A stretch of 62,845 nucleotides of DNA from Blastococcus sp. (GTDB taxonomy: Bacteria > Actinomycetota > Actinomycetes > Mycobacteriales > Geodermatophilaceae): NCBI GenBank assembly GCA_025465355.1, contig JAODNN010000105.1, positions 1 to 62,845 on the forward strand, read 5' to 3'. Position numbers and translations under genes: made by a program. The notes below the pieces were generated by a model. That model worked only from the letters and a program-made list of their open reading frames with translations. It searched no databases and had not been told where the DNA came from. Below are positions 28,551-40,840 of this stretch, piece after piece (within the stretch, counting starts at the first letter, position 1; every line of letters starts with the position of its first letter).

Positions 28551-28579
28551 TTGACGGCGTCCGCGGAGTCCGGTCTACT
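28551..28579 (+). promoter_or_regulatory. SigA-type promoter of the dnaE2 operon
   Basis: TTGACG (28551-28556) and TCTACT (28574-28579) are separated by exactly 17 bp. The expected start near 28586 falls inside the LexA palindrome, so LexA binding would block initiation. This is the best -35/-10 pair in the window. Confidence 0.7.
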
Positions 28580-28581
28580 GA

Positions 28582-28611
28582 GCACTGTTCGAACGCATGT
28601 TCGAACAGTGC
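28582..28611. promoter_or_regulatory. LexA (SOS) box in a 30-bp palindrome upstream of the dnaE2 operon
   Basis: The core TCGAACGCATGTTCGA (28589-28604) matches the mycobacterial-type LexA consensus TCGAAC-N4-GTTCGA perfectly. It is extended to a perfect inverted repeat: GCACTGTTCGAAC (28582-28594), GCAT centre, GTTCGAACAGTGC (28599-28611). It overlaps the predicted transcription start of the downstream operon. Confidence 0.92.
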
Positions 28612-28695
28612 CGAGCCCTCCGCTCCGGGCCCTTCCCCGTCCCGCGGTGGGTGGGCCGGCGTGCGGGGGGCGGTGTGCGACGTGGGGAGTCTGTC

Positions 28696-29022
28696 ATGAG
28701 CCGGGTGCTCGGTGAGGCCGCTGAACAGGTCGGCGAAGAGGTGCAGGTCGAGCGCGGTCCGCTGGGTCCGGTGCAGTTCTGGCGGGGGCAGTCCCGGTAC
28801 GTGGTGGGGGAGCTCCTCGACTCGTGGATGGAGACCGCTCCCTGGTGGCAGCGCGACGCCGCCGTCCCCGGGGGCGCGTCGGTCGAGCTGGTCGCCACCC
28901 GGGAGGTGTGGCGGGTCGAGGCGGTCCGGGCCGGGCGGTCGCGGATGAGCTTCGCCGGCGTGTACGACCTGTCCTGGGATGCCGCCGGCAACCGCTGGTG
29001 GCTCGTCCGGGTGCACGACTGA
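28696..29022 (+). CDS. DUF6504-like small protein in the dnaE2 operon
   Basis: A 108-residue, tryptophan-rich protein with the pattern PVQFWRGQSRYVV, DSWMETAPWW, EVWRVEA and WDAAGNRWWLVRVHD. I recognise this as the DUF6504-type protein found beside translesion-polymerase genes in actinobacteria. Its fold looks like a small beta-barrel, which is inference. It is the first gene after the SOS box and overlaps the next gene by TGATG. The start at 28696 is chosen because GGGGAG lies upstream; no biochemical function is known to me. Confidence 0.75.
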   Translation: MSRVLGEAAEQVGEEVQVERGPLGPVQFWRGQSRYVVGELLDSWMETAPWWQRDAAVPGGASVELVATREVWRVEAVRAGRSRMSFAGVYDLSWDAAGNRWWLVRVHD

Positions 29023-29534
29023 TGGGCGCCGCCCGTGCCGTGCCGGCCGTCGGACAGTTGCCCCTGTCCCCGGCGCTGCCCGCCGCTGCCGCCCAGCTCC
29101 TCGACCAGGCGCACCGCGGTCTCGATGCAGCCACCGGCTGTGCCGATGCCCGGGAGCGCTACGCCACGGCCCACCTGGGTGCGCTGCGCGCGGCTGCCGC
29201 CGTGCTGGCTGCGCGTACCCGGCCGGAGAATGGCAGCCGGCGGCCGCGCAGTGCCTGGGTGCTGCTCGGTCAGGTCGCTCCGGAGCTGGGGGAGTGGGCC
29301 ACCTTCTTCGCGGCCGGTGCCGCCAAGCGGGCCGCCGCCGAGGCCGGGCTCTCCCGGGCGGTCACCGAGCGAGAGGCCGACGACCTGGTCCGGGACGTCG
29401 GCGCCTTCCTCGCCGTGGTGGAGGGCTGCCTCGGTGCGCACATTCCTGAGCCGCCGGAGCCCGCCTTCCCCCGCCCGCGGGTGGTCGGCGGGACGGGGTC
29501 GCGCTCCGGGGCGCCTGCCGGATCACGGCGGTGA
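29022..29534 (+). CDS. SAV_6107-like HEPN-domain protein in the dnaE2 operon
   Basis: A 170-residue mostly helical protein. The segment ARERYATAHLGALRAAAAVLA carries an R-x4-H motif (RYATAH), the signature of HEPN ribonuclease or RNA-binding domains, and the pattern matches the SAV_6107 HEPN family. The last ~35 residues are Pro/Gly/Arg-rich. It is translationally coupled to both neighbours (TGATG with DUF6504, GTGA with dnaE2) and is under the same LexA box. Whether it cuts RNA, or only helps the polymerase, cannot be told. Confidence 0.75.
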   Translation: MGAARAVPAVGQLPLSPALPAAAAQLLDQAHRGLDAATGCADARERYATAHLGALRAAAAVLAARTRPENGSRRPRSAWVLLGQVAPELGEWATFFAAGAAKRAAAEAGLSRAVTEREADDLVRDVGAFLAVVEGCLGAHIPEPPEPAFPRPRVVGGTGSRSGAPAGSRR

Positions 29535-32500
29535 CCGACTCCTTCGTCCACCTGCACGTCGCCTCCGGTTACTCCATGCGGTTCGGGGCCAACCATCCCG
29601 CCGATCTCGTCACCCGGGCCGCCGAGCACGGCATGACGGCGCTGGCACTGACCGACCGTGACGGTCTGTACGGGGCGGTGAAGTTCGCCCTCGCCTGTCG
29701 CTCGGCCGGCGTGCGGCCGATCTTCGGCGTCGACCTCGCCGTGGCTCCCGCCCTCGACATGGCGGTGCCGCCTCCGCTCGCCCCGGCGATCGGGGACGCG
29801 TCCGCCGTGCACCGTCCGCCCCAGCTGCGGACGGCACGCCCGGGCGGCCGCCGGGTCCCGGCCCGCGGTGGGGCCAGCGTCGACCCGCGGCTGCCGCGGG
29901 TCACCTTCCTCGCCCGGGACGGCGCCGGCTGGCGATCGCTGTGCCGGCTGACCAGCGCCACTCACCTGCACGGAACCCGGGGGGAGCCGGTGAGCTCGCT
30001 GGCACTAGCGGCCGAGCACGCCTCCGGGCTGGTCGCGCTGCTGGGTCCGGACTCGCCGGTGGGGCGGGCCCTGCTCGCGGGGCGGACCGACCTCGCCGCC
30101 GCCCACCTGGCCTTCTGGCGCGCGGCGTTCGGCCCCGGGCGGCTGGTGCTCGAGGTCGTGCACCACCGCGGCCGGGGTGACCGGTCCCGGGCGCAGGCGA
30201 TGCTCCGGTTCGCCGCCGAGATGCAGCTACCGGTGGCACTGAGCAACGCCGTCCGGTACGTCGACGCCCTCGACGCCCCCACCGCCGACGTGCTCGATGC
30301 CGCTCGCCGGCTGGTGCCGCTCGACGCGCGGCACGTCGACCGGCGCACCGCCGAGGGATATCTGAAGTCGGGCAAGGAGATGGCCGAGGTAGCCGAGGAC
30401 CTCGTCGGTCCCGACCGCGATGCCGCCCTGCGGCTGCTGACGGCCACTGCCCGGCTCGCTGAGCAGTGCGCGGTCGATATCCGGGAGGATCTCGGCATCG
30501 GCAGCGTCCGCTATCCCGAGCTCGACATCGTCACCACCCCCGCCGAGCGTGGGATGAGCCCGGCCGGTGTGCTGCGGGCCCGGTGCGAAGCAGGGTTGGG
30601 CCGACGCGGCATGGCCCCCTCCGAGCGGGTGCGGCAGCGGCTGGACGAGGAGCTGGCCGTGATCGACCAGCTGGGCTACCCGTCCTACTTCCTCACCGTC
30701 GCCGACGTCGTCGACCTCATCAAGAGCCTGAGGGTCAGGGCTGCGGCGCGGGGCTCGGGCGCCGGCAGCCTGGTCACTTACCTGCTGGGCATCTCCGACG
30801 TCGATCCGCTCCGCTACGGCCTGCTGATGCAGCGCTTCCTCTCCCCGCTGCGCAACCAGCTGCCCGACATCGACATCGACGTCGAGTCGGCCCGGCGGAT
30901 GGAGGTCTACGACGCGGTGATCGACCGGTTCGGTGCCGACCGGGTCAGCTGCATCTCGATGATGGACACCTACCGGGTGCGGCACGCGATCCGGGACGTC
31001 GGCGCCGCTCTCGGGCTACCGCCGGCCGAGGTCGACGCCGTCGCCAAGGCCTTTCCGCACATCCGTGCCAACCAGGTGCACGCCGCACTCAAGGACCTTC
31101 CGGAGCTGCGGGCCAGCCGGCTGGGCTCGCGCCGAGGCGGCGGCACCGGCGATCTCGACCTGCTCTTCGATCTCGTCGCCCGGCTCGACGGCCTGCCGCG
31201 GCACATCGCGCTGCACCCGTGCGGGGTGCTGCTCTCCGACGCCACACTGCTGGACCGCACGCCGGTGGAGAACAGCTACCTCGGCTATCCCATGAGCCAG
31301 TTCGACAAGGACGACGTCGAGGAGTTGGGGCTGCTCAAGCTCGACCTGCTGGGCATCCGGATGCAGTCGGCGATCGCCCACGCGCTCGACGAGGTGGCCC
31401 GGGTCGACGGGGAGACCGTCGACATCGACGCCGTGCCGCGGGACGACCCGACGACGTTCGAGCTGATCCGCAGTACCCGGACCCTCGGCATGTTCCAGAT
31501 CGAGTCGCCGGGGCAGCGGGAGCTGGTCGGCAAGTTCGGTCCGCAGACGTTCGAAGACCTCATCATCGACATCTCGCTGTTCCGGCCCGGGCCGGTAAAG
31601 AGTGACATGGTCACCCCGTTCCTCCTGGCCCGGAACGGCTGGCGGGACGCGGTCTATCCGCACCCCGACCTCGCCTTCGCGCTGGAGCAGACCGCCGGCG
31701 TGGTGGTCTTCCACGAGCAGGTGCTGCAGATCGTGGCGCGGATGGCCGACTGCACCCTGGCCGAGGCCGACGAGGTGCGCCGGGCGCTGGGGGAGAAGGA
31801 CGCCCATCCCGAGGTGCGGGCCTGGTTCGTGCCCCGCGCGCTGGCGGCCGGCTATCCGGTGGAGGTGGCCGAGCAGGTCTGGCAGGTGCTCGCCGGCTTT
31901 GGCTCGTTCGGCTTCTGCAAGGCCCATGCGGCGGCCTTCGCGCTGCCCACCTACCAGTCGGCCTGGCTGAAGGCGCACCATCCCGCGGCATTCCTCGCCG
32001 GCGTCCTCACCCACGACCCTGGGATGTATCCCAAGCGGCTGATCCTCGACGACGCCCGCAACTTCGGGATCCGGGTGCTGGGGCTGGACGTCAACGCCTC
32101 CGCCGACACCTACCGGGTGGAACGGCTCGACCAGAACCTCCCGGAGGAGATCCCGGACGACGCCGACAGGAACGACGCCGACAGGGAGTGGCTGCGGCCG
32201 GAGTGGATGCCGGCGACGATGCCCGACCCGTCCCGGTACGGCATCCGGGTGTCCCTGGCCGATGTGAAGGGCATCTCCGACGACGAGGTCGACCGCATCG
32301 TGGCGGGCCGGCCCTACCGTTCGCTCAGCGATTTCTGGCACCGCGCGTCCGTGTCCCGGCCGGTGGTCGAGCGGCTGGTGCTCGCCGGAGGCTTCGATTC
32401 GCTCTACGGCTTCGCGGTGCGTGACCGCGAGGCCCACCGCCCGTCCCGCCGCCGGCGGCAGGTCACCCGCCGCGACCTGCTGCTGCAGATCGGCGAGCTC

Positions 32501-33337
32501 GACCGGTGGAGCCGCAGCGGGGCCCGGGCCACCTCCAACGGGCAGCTCAGTCTGGATCTGATGGGCCTGGGGCTGGCCGACGACGAGGAATCCGGCAGTC
32601 CGTCCGGAGGGGCTGACGGTGAGCCTGAGGAAACGGGTCCGGACTGGGCGGCGGGAAGCGGCCTGCCCGAATTCACTGACGCCGAGCTGGTGCGTGCCGA
32701 GCTGGAGGTGCTCGGCCTGGACGCCAGCCGGCACGTGATCGACTTCTACCGGCGGTTCCTCGCCGCGCTGGGGGCGGTCCCCGCGGGGGAGCTGCTGGGA
32801 TGCCGCAGCGGGGCCGAGGTGCTCGTCGCCGGCGTCAAGGTGGCGACCCAGACCCCGCCGATCCGGTCGGGCCGCCGGGTGGTCTTCGTGACCCTCGACG
32901 ACGGCAGCGGCTGCACCGACTCGACCTTCTTCGAGGACGTGCAGGGGCCGTATGCGGCGACGGTGTTCCACGGGTGGCTGCTGGTCGTCCGGGGCGTGCT
33001 GCGACGTACCGGCCCGCGGGGGGTGTCGTTGCGGGCCACCGGGGCGTGGGAGATGCCGGCCCTGCACGAGGCGTGGGAGGCAGGCGGGCTGGCCGCGGTC
33101 GGCGAGCTGATGGCCGCGCCGGGGGAGTACACCGATCAGGCCGTCGCCGGGGCGGCGGCATCGCGCAGCACCCGGCCGGTCATGGTGCGGCCGGTGCTGG
33201 TCCACCCGACCGGATTCCGGATGTCGCCGTATGCCGACATCAAGCCCGCCGGCGAGGACTCCAAGGTGGCGGCCCGGCGCGCGGGTGCGGCGCCGCGGAA
33301 ACTCTGGCATTCCAGTCCCGGCAGCTCGGGCCATTGA
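29531..33337 (+). CDS. dnaE2: Error-prone DNA polymerase DnaE2
   Basis: A 1268-residue C-family polymerase alpha subunit used for damage-induced mutagenesis. The N-terminal PHP domain starts HLHVASGYSMRFGANHPADL. The catalytic aspartates are in LPDIDIDVE (around residue 447) and LLKLDLLG (around 602), both intact. FHEQVLQIVARM and FGFCKAHAAAFALPTYQSAW are conserved fingers segments, and an OB-fold region follows towards the C-terminus. It is longer than typical DnaE2 (about 1,080-1,100). No imuA' or imuB lies next to it. The GTG overlaps the HEPN gene stop. Confidence 0.94.
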   Translation: MTDSFVHLHVASGYSMRFGANHPADLVTRAAEHGMTALALTDRDGLYGAVKFALACRSAGVRPIFGVDLAVAPALDMAVPPPLAPAIGDASAVHRPPQLRTARPGGRRVPARGGASVDPRLPRVTFLARDGAGWRSLCRLTSATHLHGTRGEPVSSLALAAEHASGLVALLGPDSPVGRALLAGRTDLAAAHLAFWRAAFGPGRLVLEVVHHRGRGDRSRAQAMLRFAAEMQLPVALSNAVRYVDALDAPTADVLDAARRLVPLDARHVDRRTAEGYLKSGKEMAEVAEDLVGPDRDAALRLLTATARLAEQCAVDIREDLGIGSVRYPELDIVTTPAERGMSPAGVLRARCEAGLGRRGMAPSERVRQRLDEELAVIDQLGYPSYFLTVADVVDLIKSLRVRAAARGSGAGSLVTYLLGISDVDPLRYGLLMQRFLSPLRNQLPDIDIDVESARRMEVYDAVIDRFGADRVSCISMMDTYRVRHAIRDVGAALGLPPAEVDAVAKAFPHIRANQVHAALKDLPELRASRLGSRRGGGTGDLDLLFDLVARLDGLPRHIALHPCGVLLSDATLLDRTPVENSYLGYPMSQFDKDDVEELGLLKLDLLGIRMQSAIAHALDEVARVDGETVDIDAVPRDDPTTFELIRSTRTLGMFQIESPGQRELVGKFGPQTFEDLIIDISLFRPGPVKSDMVTPFLLARNGWRDAVYPHPDLAFALEQTAGVVVFHEQVLQIVARMADCTLAEADEVRRALGEKDAHPEVRAWFVPRALAAGYPVEVAEQVWQVLAGFGSFGFCKAHAAAFALPTYQSAWLKAHHPAAFLAGVLTHDPGMYPKRLILDDARNFGIRVLGLDVNASADTYRVERLDQNLPEEIPDDADRNDADREWLRPEWMPATMPDPSRYGIRVSLADVKGISDDEVDRIVAGRPYRSLSDFWHRASVSRPVVERLVLAGGFDSLYGFAVRDREAHRPSRRRRQVTRRDLLLQIGELDRWSRSGARATSNGQLSLDLMGLGLADDEESGSPSGGADGEPEETGPDWAAGSGLPEFTDAELVRAELEVLGLDASRHVIDFYRRFLAALGAVPAGELLGCRSGAEVLVAGVKVATQTPPIRSGRRVVFVTLDDGSGCTDSTFFEDVQGPYAATVFHGWLLVVRGVLRRTGPRGVSLRATGAWEMPALHEAWEAGGLAAVGELMAAPGEYTDQAVAGAAASRSTRPVMVRPVLVHPTGFRMSPYADIKPAGEDSKVAARRAGAAPRKLWHSSPGSSGH

Positions 33338-39574: not shown

Positions 39575-39590
39575 TCGAACAGGTGTTCGA
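39575..39590. promoter_or_regulatory. LexA (SOS) box upstream of dinB
   Basis: TCGAACAGGTGTTCGA is a perfect match to the mycobacterial-type LexA consensus and is 17 bp before the dinB GTG. It lies downstream of the likely -10, a position where LexA can block transcription. Confidence 0.9.
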
Positions 39591-39607
39591 CACGGAGAGG
39601 GGGATTC

Positions 39608-40840
39608 GTGAGATCGTCGGCCGGCCGGGCGGACGGGTGCACCCTCCTGCACGTCGACATGGACGCCTTCTTCGCCAGTGTCGAAGTGCGCCGGCACCCG
39701 GAGTTGGCAGGTACGCCGGTGATCGTCGGCGGCGCCGGCAACCGGGGGGTGGTCACCTCGGCCACCTACGAGGCCCGGCGCTACGGGGTGCACTCGGCGA
39801 TGCCGACGGCGCGGGCGCTGCGGCTGTGCCCCACGGCAACGGTCCTGCCGGGGGACATGGCCCTCTACGCCGAGGTCTCCCGGTCGGTCATGGCGCTGTT
39901 CCGCTCGATCACCCCGCTGGTGGAGCCGCTGTCGCTGGACGAGGCGTTCCTGGACGTCTCGGGCGCCCGCCGCCGGCTGGGGGACGCGGTGGAGATCGGC
40001 GAGTACATCCGCGCCCGGGTCTACGACGAGCAGGGCATCACCTGTTCGGTCGGTGTCGCAGGGACCAAGTTCGTCGCCAAGCTGGCCTCGACCCGTGCCA
40101 AGCCGGACGGGCTGCTCGTCGTCCGTCCGCCCGAGGTCATGGACTTCCTGCACCCGCTCCCGGTCGGTGCCCTGTGGGGGGTGGGGCCCAAGACCGAGGA
40201 GACCCTGCTGCGTCTCGGGCTGCGGACGGTCGGCGACCTGGCCCACGTGCCGGTGCGCACCCTGGAGCGGGCCCTGGGCCCGGCCGCGGGCGCGCATCTG
40301 CACGCGCTGTCGTGGGGCCGTGATCCGCGCCGGGTGGTGCCCGACGAACCGGAGCGGTCGACCGGCGCCGAGGAGACGTTCCCGACCGACATCGACGATC
40401 CCGCCGTCATCCACCGCGAGTTGCTGCACCTCGCCGAGCGGACGGCGGGCCGGCTGCGCTCCACCGGCACCCTGGCCCGCACCGTGACCATCAAGGTCCG
40501 CTTCGCCGACTTCGCCACCCTCACCCGCAGCCGGACCCTGGACGTGCCCACCGACGTGGGGCAGGAGCTCTACGACACCGCCCGCACCCTCTACGACGCG
40601 CTCGGGCTGGACCGGGCGCGGATCCGGCTGGTCGGGGTGCGGGCCGAGCGCCTGATCGATGCCGGCACCGCGGCGCAGCAACTCGAGCTGGGGGCACGCG
40701 AGCACGGCCGCCGGGACGCCGAGCTGGCCGCCGACCGGGCCGCCCGCCGTTTCGGTGCCGGTGCGGTGCGGCCGGCGACGCTGCTCAGGAGGCGCGGCCG
40801 ACCTGGCGGGGGAGGAGTTTCCCGCCACTCGGAGGGGTGA
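39608..40840 (+). CDS. dinB: DNA polymerase IV (Y-family, DinB)
   Basis: A 410-residue translesion polymerase. LLHVDMDAFFASVE and SLDEAFLDVSG carry the catalytic acids; TCSVGVAGTKFVAKLAS and GVGPKTEETLLRLGL (helix-hairpin-helix) follow; the little-finger domain runs to about residue 350. A canonical C-terminal beta-clamp motif is not obvious; QLELG near residue 360 is a degenerate candidate. GGAGAGGGGG precedes the GTG. The perfect SOS box directly upstream indicates damage induction, which is not universal for actinobacterial dinB. Confidence 0.93.
   Translation: MRSSAGRADGCTLLHVDMDAFFASVEVRRHPELAGTPVIVGGAGNRGVVTSATYEARRYGVHSAMPTARALRLCPTATVLPGDMALYAEVSRSVMALFRSITPLVEPLSLDEAFLDVSGARRRLGDAVEIGEYIRARVYDEQGITCSVGVAGTKFVAKLASTRAKPDGLLVVRPPEVMDFLHPLPVGALWGVGPKTEETLLRLGLRTVGDLAHVPVRTLERALGPAAGAHLHALSWGRDPRRVVPDEPERSTGAEETFPTDIDDPAVIHRELLHLAERTAGRLRSTGTLARTVTIKVRFADFATLTRSRTLDVPTDVGQELYDTARTLYDALGLDRARIRLVGVRAERLIDAGTAAQQLELGAREHGRRDAELAADRAARRFGAGAVRPATLLRRRGRPGGGGVSRHSEG

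Follow-up and report, generated by a model that had tools for sequence, protein, structure and literature searches.

Why should a HEPN-domain protein be encoded in one transcription unit with a DnaE2 polymerase? The question is raised by a stretch of 62,845 nucleotides (nt) from Blastococcus sp. (contig JAODNN010000105.1, positions 1 to 62,845; this whole stretch is called the window below), which has a guanine-plus-cytosine content of 74%, comes from a 4.9-Mb draft genome that is 95% complete, and carries the genes for a DUF6504 protein, a HEPN_SAV_6107 protein and DnaE2 one after another behind a LexA operator. The answer that we hold, as a whole, to be fairly likely is that LexA would drive a polymerase of the DnaE2B type together with a free ImuB C-terminal domain (ImuB-C) that docks on it, and that the HEPN protein between them would be a core damage gene of the Actinomycetes with a function of its own.

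The three genes lie on the forward strand and encode a DUF6504 protein of 108 amino acids, a stand-alone ImuB-C-like domain (28696..29022; PF20114, 9e-10), the HEPN_SAV_6107 protein of 170 amino acids (29022..29534; PF18726, 2.1e-37), and DnaE2 of 1268 amino acids (29531..33337), which by tree and alignment belongs to a clade apart from the ImuB-linked DnaE2 and keeps the PDIDID and KLD aspartates intact. Just as the preliminary description of this DNA had it, their start and stop codons overlap, by 1 nt between DUF6504 and HEPN (TGATG) and by 4 nt between HEPN and dnaE2 (GTGA), and a SigA-type promoter abuts a LexA box. The promoter, TTGACG-17-TCTACT (28551..28579, forward strand), is made up of TTGACG at 28551-28556, a spacer of 17 nt and TCTACT at 28574-28579, and ends 2 nt before the palindrome of the LexA operator (28582..28611, no strand), the core of which is the exact SOS box TCGAAC-N4-GTTCGA at 28589-28604, just 3' of the -10 hexamer; judging from this layout, transcription should start at the position of the box. 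The palindrome had been called perfect over 30 base pairs (bp), which is true of its two 13-nt arms with the exact box and not of the whole, because the 4-nt GCAT centre is not palindromic.

The arrangement recurs in the 17 other family-f1 loci, chosen as close relatives of the window: 13 of them share identical promoter hexamers with the same 17-nt spacing, in all 17 the distance from the -35 element to the box is 37-41 nt, and the box is conserved. The outer palindrome arms are not conserved among these loci, reaching 0 to 11 nt beyond the 16-bp box over the listed loci and 7 nt in the window. Over the whole genome, exact SOS boxes number 7, and sites with at most one mismatch 47, against 10 for the backwards pattern; recA has one box with one mismatch, whereas three boxes belong to lexA, of which two are exact. 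One of the seven exact boxes (L021, 4229-4244) stands 22 nt before a DUF222-HNH gene. Genes of the LexA regulon are marked by a LexA box at a promoter that relatives share. Such a box is present here, and the prediction that DUF6504, HEPN_SAV_6107 and dnaE2 form a single operon under LexA control is supported.

Is the HEPN gene, then, under damage control only where it stands beside a polymerase? We looked through the 900 bp that precede the HEPN domain at 154 loci, 86 from outside Streptomyces and 68 from Streptomyces, and a SOS box with at most one mismatch was present in 75 of the former and 2 of the latter, the expectation being 0.008 per locus. Sorted by neighbours, the box occurs in 24/25 loci with DUF6504 and DnaE2B, 3/4 with DUF6504 and no DnaE2 in the stretch, 10/11 with ImuA/ImuB, the single locus with only DnaE2B, the single locus with only DnaE2A, and 36/44 loci in which HEPN is alone, three of these 44 being divergent homologues from outside the class Actinomycetes, all without the box. 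Three loci in family f89 (L295, L296, L320) have two near-SOS boxes 40 nt apart at HEPN; L119, L121 and L122 hold divergent HEPN_SAV_6107 homologues outside the class, with neither SOS box nor mutasome neighbours in the stretch; and L109, L211 and L266, of Micromonosporaceae type, share a similar leader of 0.3-0.4 kb between SOS promoter and HEPN, conserved by eye. A structured RNA was considered and rejected, no Rfam match above the gathering score being found in the window or in L211.

The Streptomyces loci carry another signal. Within 900 nt upstream of HEPN we looked for TTGTCRGTG-N8-TANNNT with at most two mismatches, which we take to be the longer consensus of PafBC-type promoters. The core form of these RecA-independent damage promoters, TGTCRG-N10-TA-N3-T, is given in the available part of PMC8151990. 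Such a site precedes HEPN in 66/68 Streptomyces loci and in 34/86 others, whereas the reversed and complemented control motifs were found in 1/68 and 0/68 of the Streptomyces loci; an alignment of the 66 Streptomyces sites, picked by the motif itself, shows no variation in the last eight bases of TTGTCAGTG and a spacer that is mostly variable. Among 77 loci, 27 have the PafBC-type motif right at the SOS box (within 85 nt; 0.003 expected). The window has no PafBC-type promoter, its best site showing 5 mismatches. A LexA box, a PafBC-type promoter or both were present at 144/154 loci, and damage-type control of HEPN extends further than had been supposed.

These counts bear on the plainest explanation of the locus, namely that HEPN is one of the ordinary genes in the conserved region ahead of the dcw cluster, merely using the SOS promoter that belongs to the genes beside it. 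Genes for GNAT, tRNA_edit, methyltransferase, DinB, DUF3040 and mraZ do recur around HEPN, as synteny would have it; against this stand the boxes upstream of HEPN in those 36 loci where it is alone, as well as the PafBC-type promoter, found at nearly every Streptomyces HEPN gene but at only 3/327 other genes of the same loci, and we regard mere synteny as very unlikely. The S. venezuelae LexA study, as far as its available text goes, lists dnaE2 and dinP, no gene named HEPN and a few hypothetical proteins, states that, by an initial search, the mycobacterial PafBC motif does not seem to be conserved there, and leaves undecided whether Streptomyces has a RecA/LexA-independent response (PMC9380542); the site before HEPN in the Streptomyces loci is a direct candidate for such a response.

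A second question is whether HEPN belongs to the polymerase beside it. It might serve DnaE2 mutasomes as a third subunit of their own, binding DnaE2 of either clade and needed for mutagenesis, and much of the gene order would suit this: HEPN lies directly before DnaE2B or before ImuA'-ImuB-DnaE2A in many loci, gene overlap in the window implies co-transcription, and, by the listed coordinates, HEPN is next to DUF6504 or ImuB in 58/151 class genomes. Where a class genome has both HEPN and DUF6504, the two adjoin on one strand in 48/57 cases, so that the conserved order anticipated for relatives is indeed found (the 9 others, non-adjacent, all belong to family f89, in which, separately, 11 genomes hold two DUF6504 copies); HEPN adjoins ImuB in 10/67. 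Furthermore, the HEPN protein of the window has near its N terminus the peptide QLPLSP (29055..29072, forward strand), a possible clamp-binding peptide by its sequence, and the clamp-like QLPL of family-f1 HEPN proteins favours a mutasome subunit; it occurs in 16/154 loci, all of family f1 and including the window.

The distribution over genomes, however, points the other way. In a class sample of 216 genomes, HEPN was found in 153, DUF6504 in 90 and ImuB in 96, and 32 of the 153 HEPN genomes had neither DUF6504 nor ImuB; HEPN is not positively associated at genome level with DUF6504 (odds ratio 0.59), with ImuB (1.10) or with either (0.26, p 0.009), and the counts do not support the idea that HEPN is inherited together with the mutasome. 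Outside the class, 20 DUF6504 loci were fetched, 15 with DnaE2 in the stretch and 16 with a SOS box of at most one mismatch near DUF6504, and a HEPN match was found in none of the 20. Nor did a hidden HEPN turn up between DUF6504 and DnaE2 there: by eye, the gap in L128 holds a metallo-hydrolase-like open reading frame and that in L142 a divergent one resembling uracil-DNA glycosylase. We therefore think the third-subunit proposal unlikely, and the earlier suggestion of HEPN as a factor tied to DnaE2 is weakened by the same counts.

What the loci suggest instead is one syntenic site in three states: DUF6504-HEPN-DnaE2B (L201, L206 of Kineosporia, L256), HEPN-ImuA'-ImuB-DnaE2A (Pilimelia, Actinoplanes, Paractinoplanes, Plantactinospora, Micromonospora), and HEPN alone (Streptomyces, L232). 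HEPN stands directly before a complete ImuA'-ImuB-DnaE2A set in 9 of 11 such loci, with L217 and L220 showing part of it within the stretch, and ImuA' was confirmed by family model in both loci scanned. In L162 (G280) a SOS box, DUF6504 (E 5.8e-4, under the cut-off), HEPN, ImuA', ImuB and DnaE2A follow in a row, as expected if the mutasome had been exchanged in place. HEPN thus looks like a gene that stays at its site while the neighbouring mutasome is swapped or lost, the direction of change being our reading of these states; because of the three states of one site and of the damage promoters at 144/154 loci, it appears to be one of the core DNA-damage genes of actinobacteria. A contig titled Spirochaetaceae metagenome-assembled genome (L276), with tRNA_edit-DUF6504-HEPN and an exact actinobacterial SOS box, is probably misbinned.

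Whether the HEPN protein acts on RNA was asked by the preliminary description, which, pointing to an R-x4-H motif, suggested that the SOS response may induce it as an RNA-acting or polymerase-assisting factor. The string RYATAH is present in the window protein (R46, H51), the protein belongs to a HEPN family, and over the 86 non-Streptomyces loci the R is kept in 85 and the H in 73, all of which would suit a SOS-induced ribonuclease (RNase) or RNA-acting toxin. That the motif marks an RNase is not supported: the H position is Y, Q or S in 12/86 loci, and the H is replaced in L111 and L117, both of which have exact SOS boxes. Among solved structures the HEPN protein 2hsb comes closest by sequence, and this weak profile match (E 0.011) aligns RYATAH with RCCSTAY and another arginine of the HEPN protein with the REESDY stretch, which we take to be the usual HEPN site. 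Additionally, the table of the HEPN census, in the part available, gives SAV_6107 (HEPN-M) as being without a conserved Rx4-6H motif (PMC3710099). RYATAH is thus unlikely to be an active site, and an RNase or toxin seems to us highly improbable, though the protein may bind RNA without catalysis. No nucleotidyltransferase (MNT) gene lies next to HEPN in the window, its neighbours being DUF6504 and DnaE2. PADLOC gave only a weak match for HEPN (PDC-M05B, E 0.0026), on which account a defence system was rejected, and HEPN matches on plasmids were none. On the whole, HEPN is unlikely to be an RNase, and equally unlikely to be a subunit reserved for DnaE2.

If HEPN has its own task, how would DnaE2 work in a locus that lacks the classic partners? 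That imuB is not adjacent had been pointed out before, and the statement can be extended to the whole genome, 95% complete as it is, where an ImuB query had no match at 1e-20 and the two Y-family genes both read as DinB, one of them the window DinB by family models and the other by eye from its translation, so that the ImuB that defines an ImuA'-ImuB-DnaE2 mutasome was not found. No imuA' adjoins dnaE2; a genome-wide search for ImuA' was not run. The window DinB makes up a second SOS unit of the locus (39575..40840, forward strand; family models and box scan), with an exact SOS box at 39575-39590 and dinB at 39608-40840.

In place of ImuB there is the DUF6504 protein, very probably ImuB-C as a protein by itself, because the Pfam model PF20114 finds a match at the C terminus of a Rhizobium ImuB, residues 428-500 (4.5e-5; 24.1 bits, just under the cut-off of 24.2) and because the profile score of actinobacterial DUF6504 against ImuB C-termini in hhalign, 23.7 over the last 66 columns, exceeds that of 30 column shuffles (maximum 19.9). 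Its best relative by sequence in the PDB has E 0.58. Moreover, DUF6504 and ImuB avoid each other, occurring together in 0/246 phylum genomes (84 and 45 carry one) and in 6/216 class genomes against 40 expected, counts that take no account of phylogeny.

The polymerase, too, is of another kind. In a FastTree tree of DnaE proteins, all 11 ImuB-linked DnaE2 form one clade, and a separate clade takes 30 of the 33 DnaE2 that come from ImuB-free loci with DUF6504 or HEPN (labelled DUF6504-linked, and including L298, where no DUF6504 was detected); L133, L145 and L165 fall outside it. The tree left out 9 family-f1 rows and shorter or weaker DnaE rows, and long branches were flagged for the genome's own DnaE1 fragment, Collinsella, Euzebya, Rhizobium and L165, which L145 meets. 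The window DnaE2 lies outside the ImuB-linked clade and with the Streptomyces iPolY-linked type: its clade also holds two Streptomyces plasmid DnaE2, one of them followed by a gene with a Y-family (IMS) domain, so that an iPolY-like neighbour is found in only one of the two. With the aspartates of PDIDID and KLD invariant in both clades, the window polymerase has its catalytic residues intact. Alignment by eye reveals a putative clamp-binding motif, QLSLDL (32543..32560, forward strand), and at this position Q[LM]x[LF] is found in 27/33 non-ImuB DnaE2 (30 if QAAF, QTAM and QASL are added) and in 0/11 ImuB-linked DnaE2 (L325 reads QPYL), suggesting that DnaE2B probably tethers itself to the sliding clamp. 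A second DnaE of the genome, in two pieces on contigs C66 and C173, is presumably the replicative DnaE1.

The explanation that we favour would run as follows. Upon DNA damage LexA would leave the operator, and one transcript would give three proteins. The free ImuB-C would dock on DnaE2B, by analogy with ImuB-C in published mycobacterial mutasome models, and DnaE2B would bind the clamp via its own QLSLDL, so that docking and clamp tethering, the two jobs of ImuB, would be covered without it. The HEPN protein, ancestral at the locus, would have kept its own function when the mutasome was exchanged for ImuA'-ImuB-DnaE2A or lost, a function most likely non-catalytic, such as that of a small helical adaptor at damaged forks, its possible targets being translesion polymerases or the clamp. 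A bolder proposal, distinctly unlikely in our judgement, would make HEPN_SAV_6107 a general damage effector that follows the regulator prevailing in its lineage, be it LexA, PafBC or the two together, and acts as a non-catalytic partner of DNA polymerases, tuning their access or fidelity. The palm of C-family polymerases is Pol-beta-like, and HEPN might pair with that palm in the translesion members, just as HEPN proteins pair with small Pol-beta-like nucleotidyltransferases. If HEPN did follow whichever regulator is at hand, Streptomyces would have an overlooked PafBC-type response.

Several points weigh against the favoured explanation. HEPN has been lost from many genomes, 63/216 in the class being without it, and its QLPL motif is confined to family f1. 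The HEPN loci are not independent events, because those from Streptomyces are closely related and some may be present in both collections; 40/153 class HEPN loci were fetched, 38 of them chosen for a HEPN not adjoining DUF6504 or ImuB, and of 417 matches in the scan of genome contigs the best 80 were kept, most of them from Streptomyces. By chance, a stretch of 900 nt should hold about 0.04 PafBC-type sites. As to DUF6504, the hhalign probability against ImuB C-termini is 9-18%, and the Pfam match is absent in 3 of 4 scanned ImuB proteins (L109, L162, L325, all actinobacterial); within family f1, the ImuB search covered the window's genome only. The role of HEPN as a non-catalytic adaptor in translesion synthesis is our favoured guess, though one that we give somewhat less than even odds, and the C. 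glutamicum gene cg2381 is probably the HEPN gene going by gene order, since it lies three locus numbers from mraZ (cg2378). With the present findings, an uncharacterised protein family of the Actinomycetes gains a clear biological setting, the DNA-damage response.

How does the locus compare with what is known? Among open-licence papers we found none on DUF6504, on HEPN with DnaE2, or on a HEPN domain with DNA damage or mitomycin in actinobacteria; a paper that turned up for PafBC together with HEPN was unrelated as far as its available text goes. The window HEPN is a PF18726 member and thus belongs to the HEPN-M (SAV_6107) family, for which the table row in the available part of PMC3710099 gives neither operon nor function, whereas the window ties it to the DNA-damage response. 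Its probable counterpart by position near mraZ, cg2381, belongs to the LexA regulon and goes up under ciprofloxacin (M = 3.86), according to the part of PMC5055667 at hand. The Streptomyces PafBC-type sites differ from the motif in the available text of PMC8151990 in that C replaces the first T of TA-N3-T. With the ImuA'-ImuB-DnaE2 mutasome, as far as it is set out in the available parts of PMC12926913 and PMC6511836, the window shares LexA control, DnaE2 and the ImuB-C domain, and in other species that mutasome is found at this very locus, following the HEPN gene; the window differs in that no ImuB was found, in its polymerase clade and in the polymerase's own clamp-like motif. PMC3765255 describes a free ImuB-C that neighbours DnaE2 in the absence of DinB; its available text has no mention of HEPN, unlike the window with its HEPN gene. 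Closest of all is the DnaE2B-[ImuB-C] module (PMC12926913, NAR 2026), reported, in the part available, only in Actinobacteria: in both there is a DnaE2 outside the ImuB-linked clade, to be equated with DnaE2B by our tree, a stand-alone ImuB-C-like protein encoded with it (in the window with one gene between and a homology near threshold), and no ImuB found. The HEPN gene in between, never mentioned in the main text of that paper, sets the window apart; in other respects its operon encodes an ImuB-free mutasome of the type published there, and suggests a route by which a free ImuB-C and a polymerase with its own clamp motif would dispense with ImuB.

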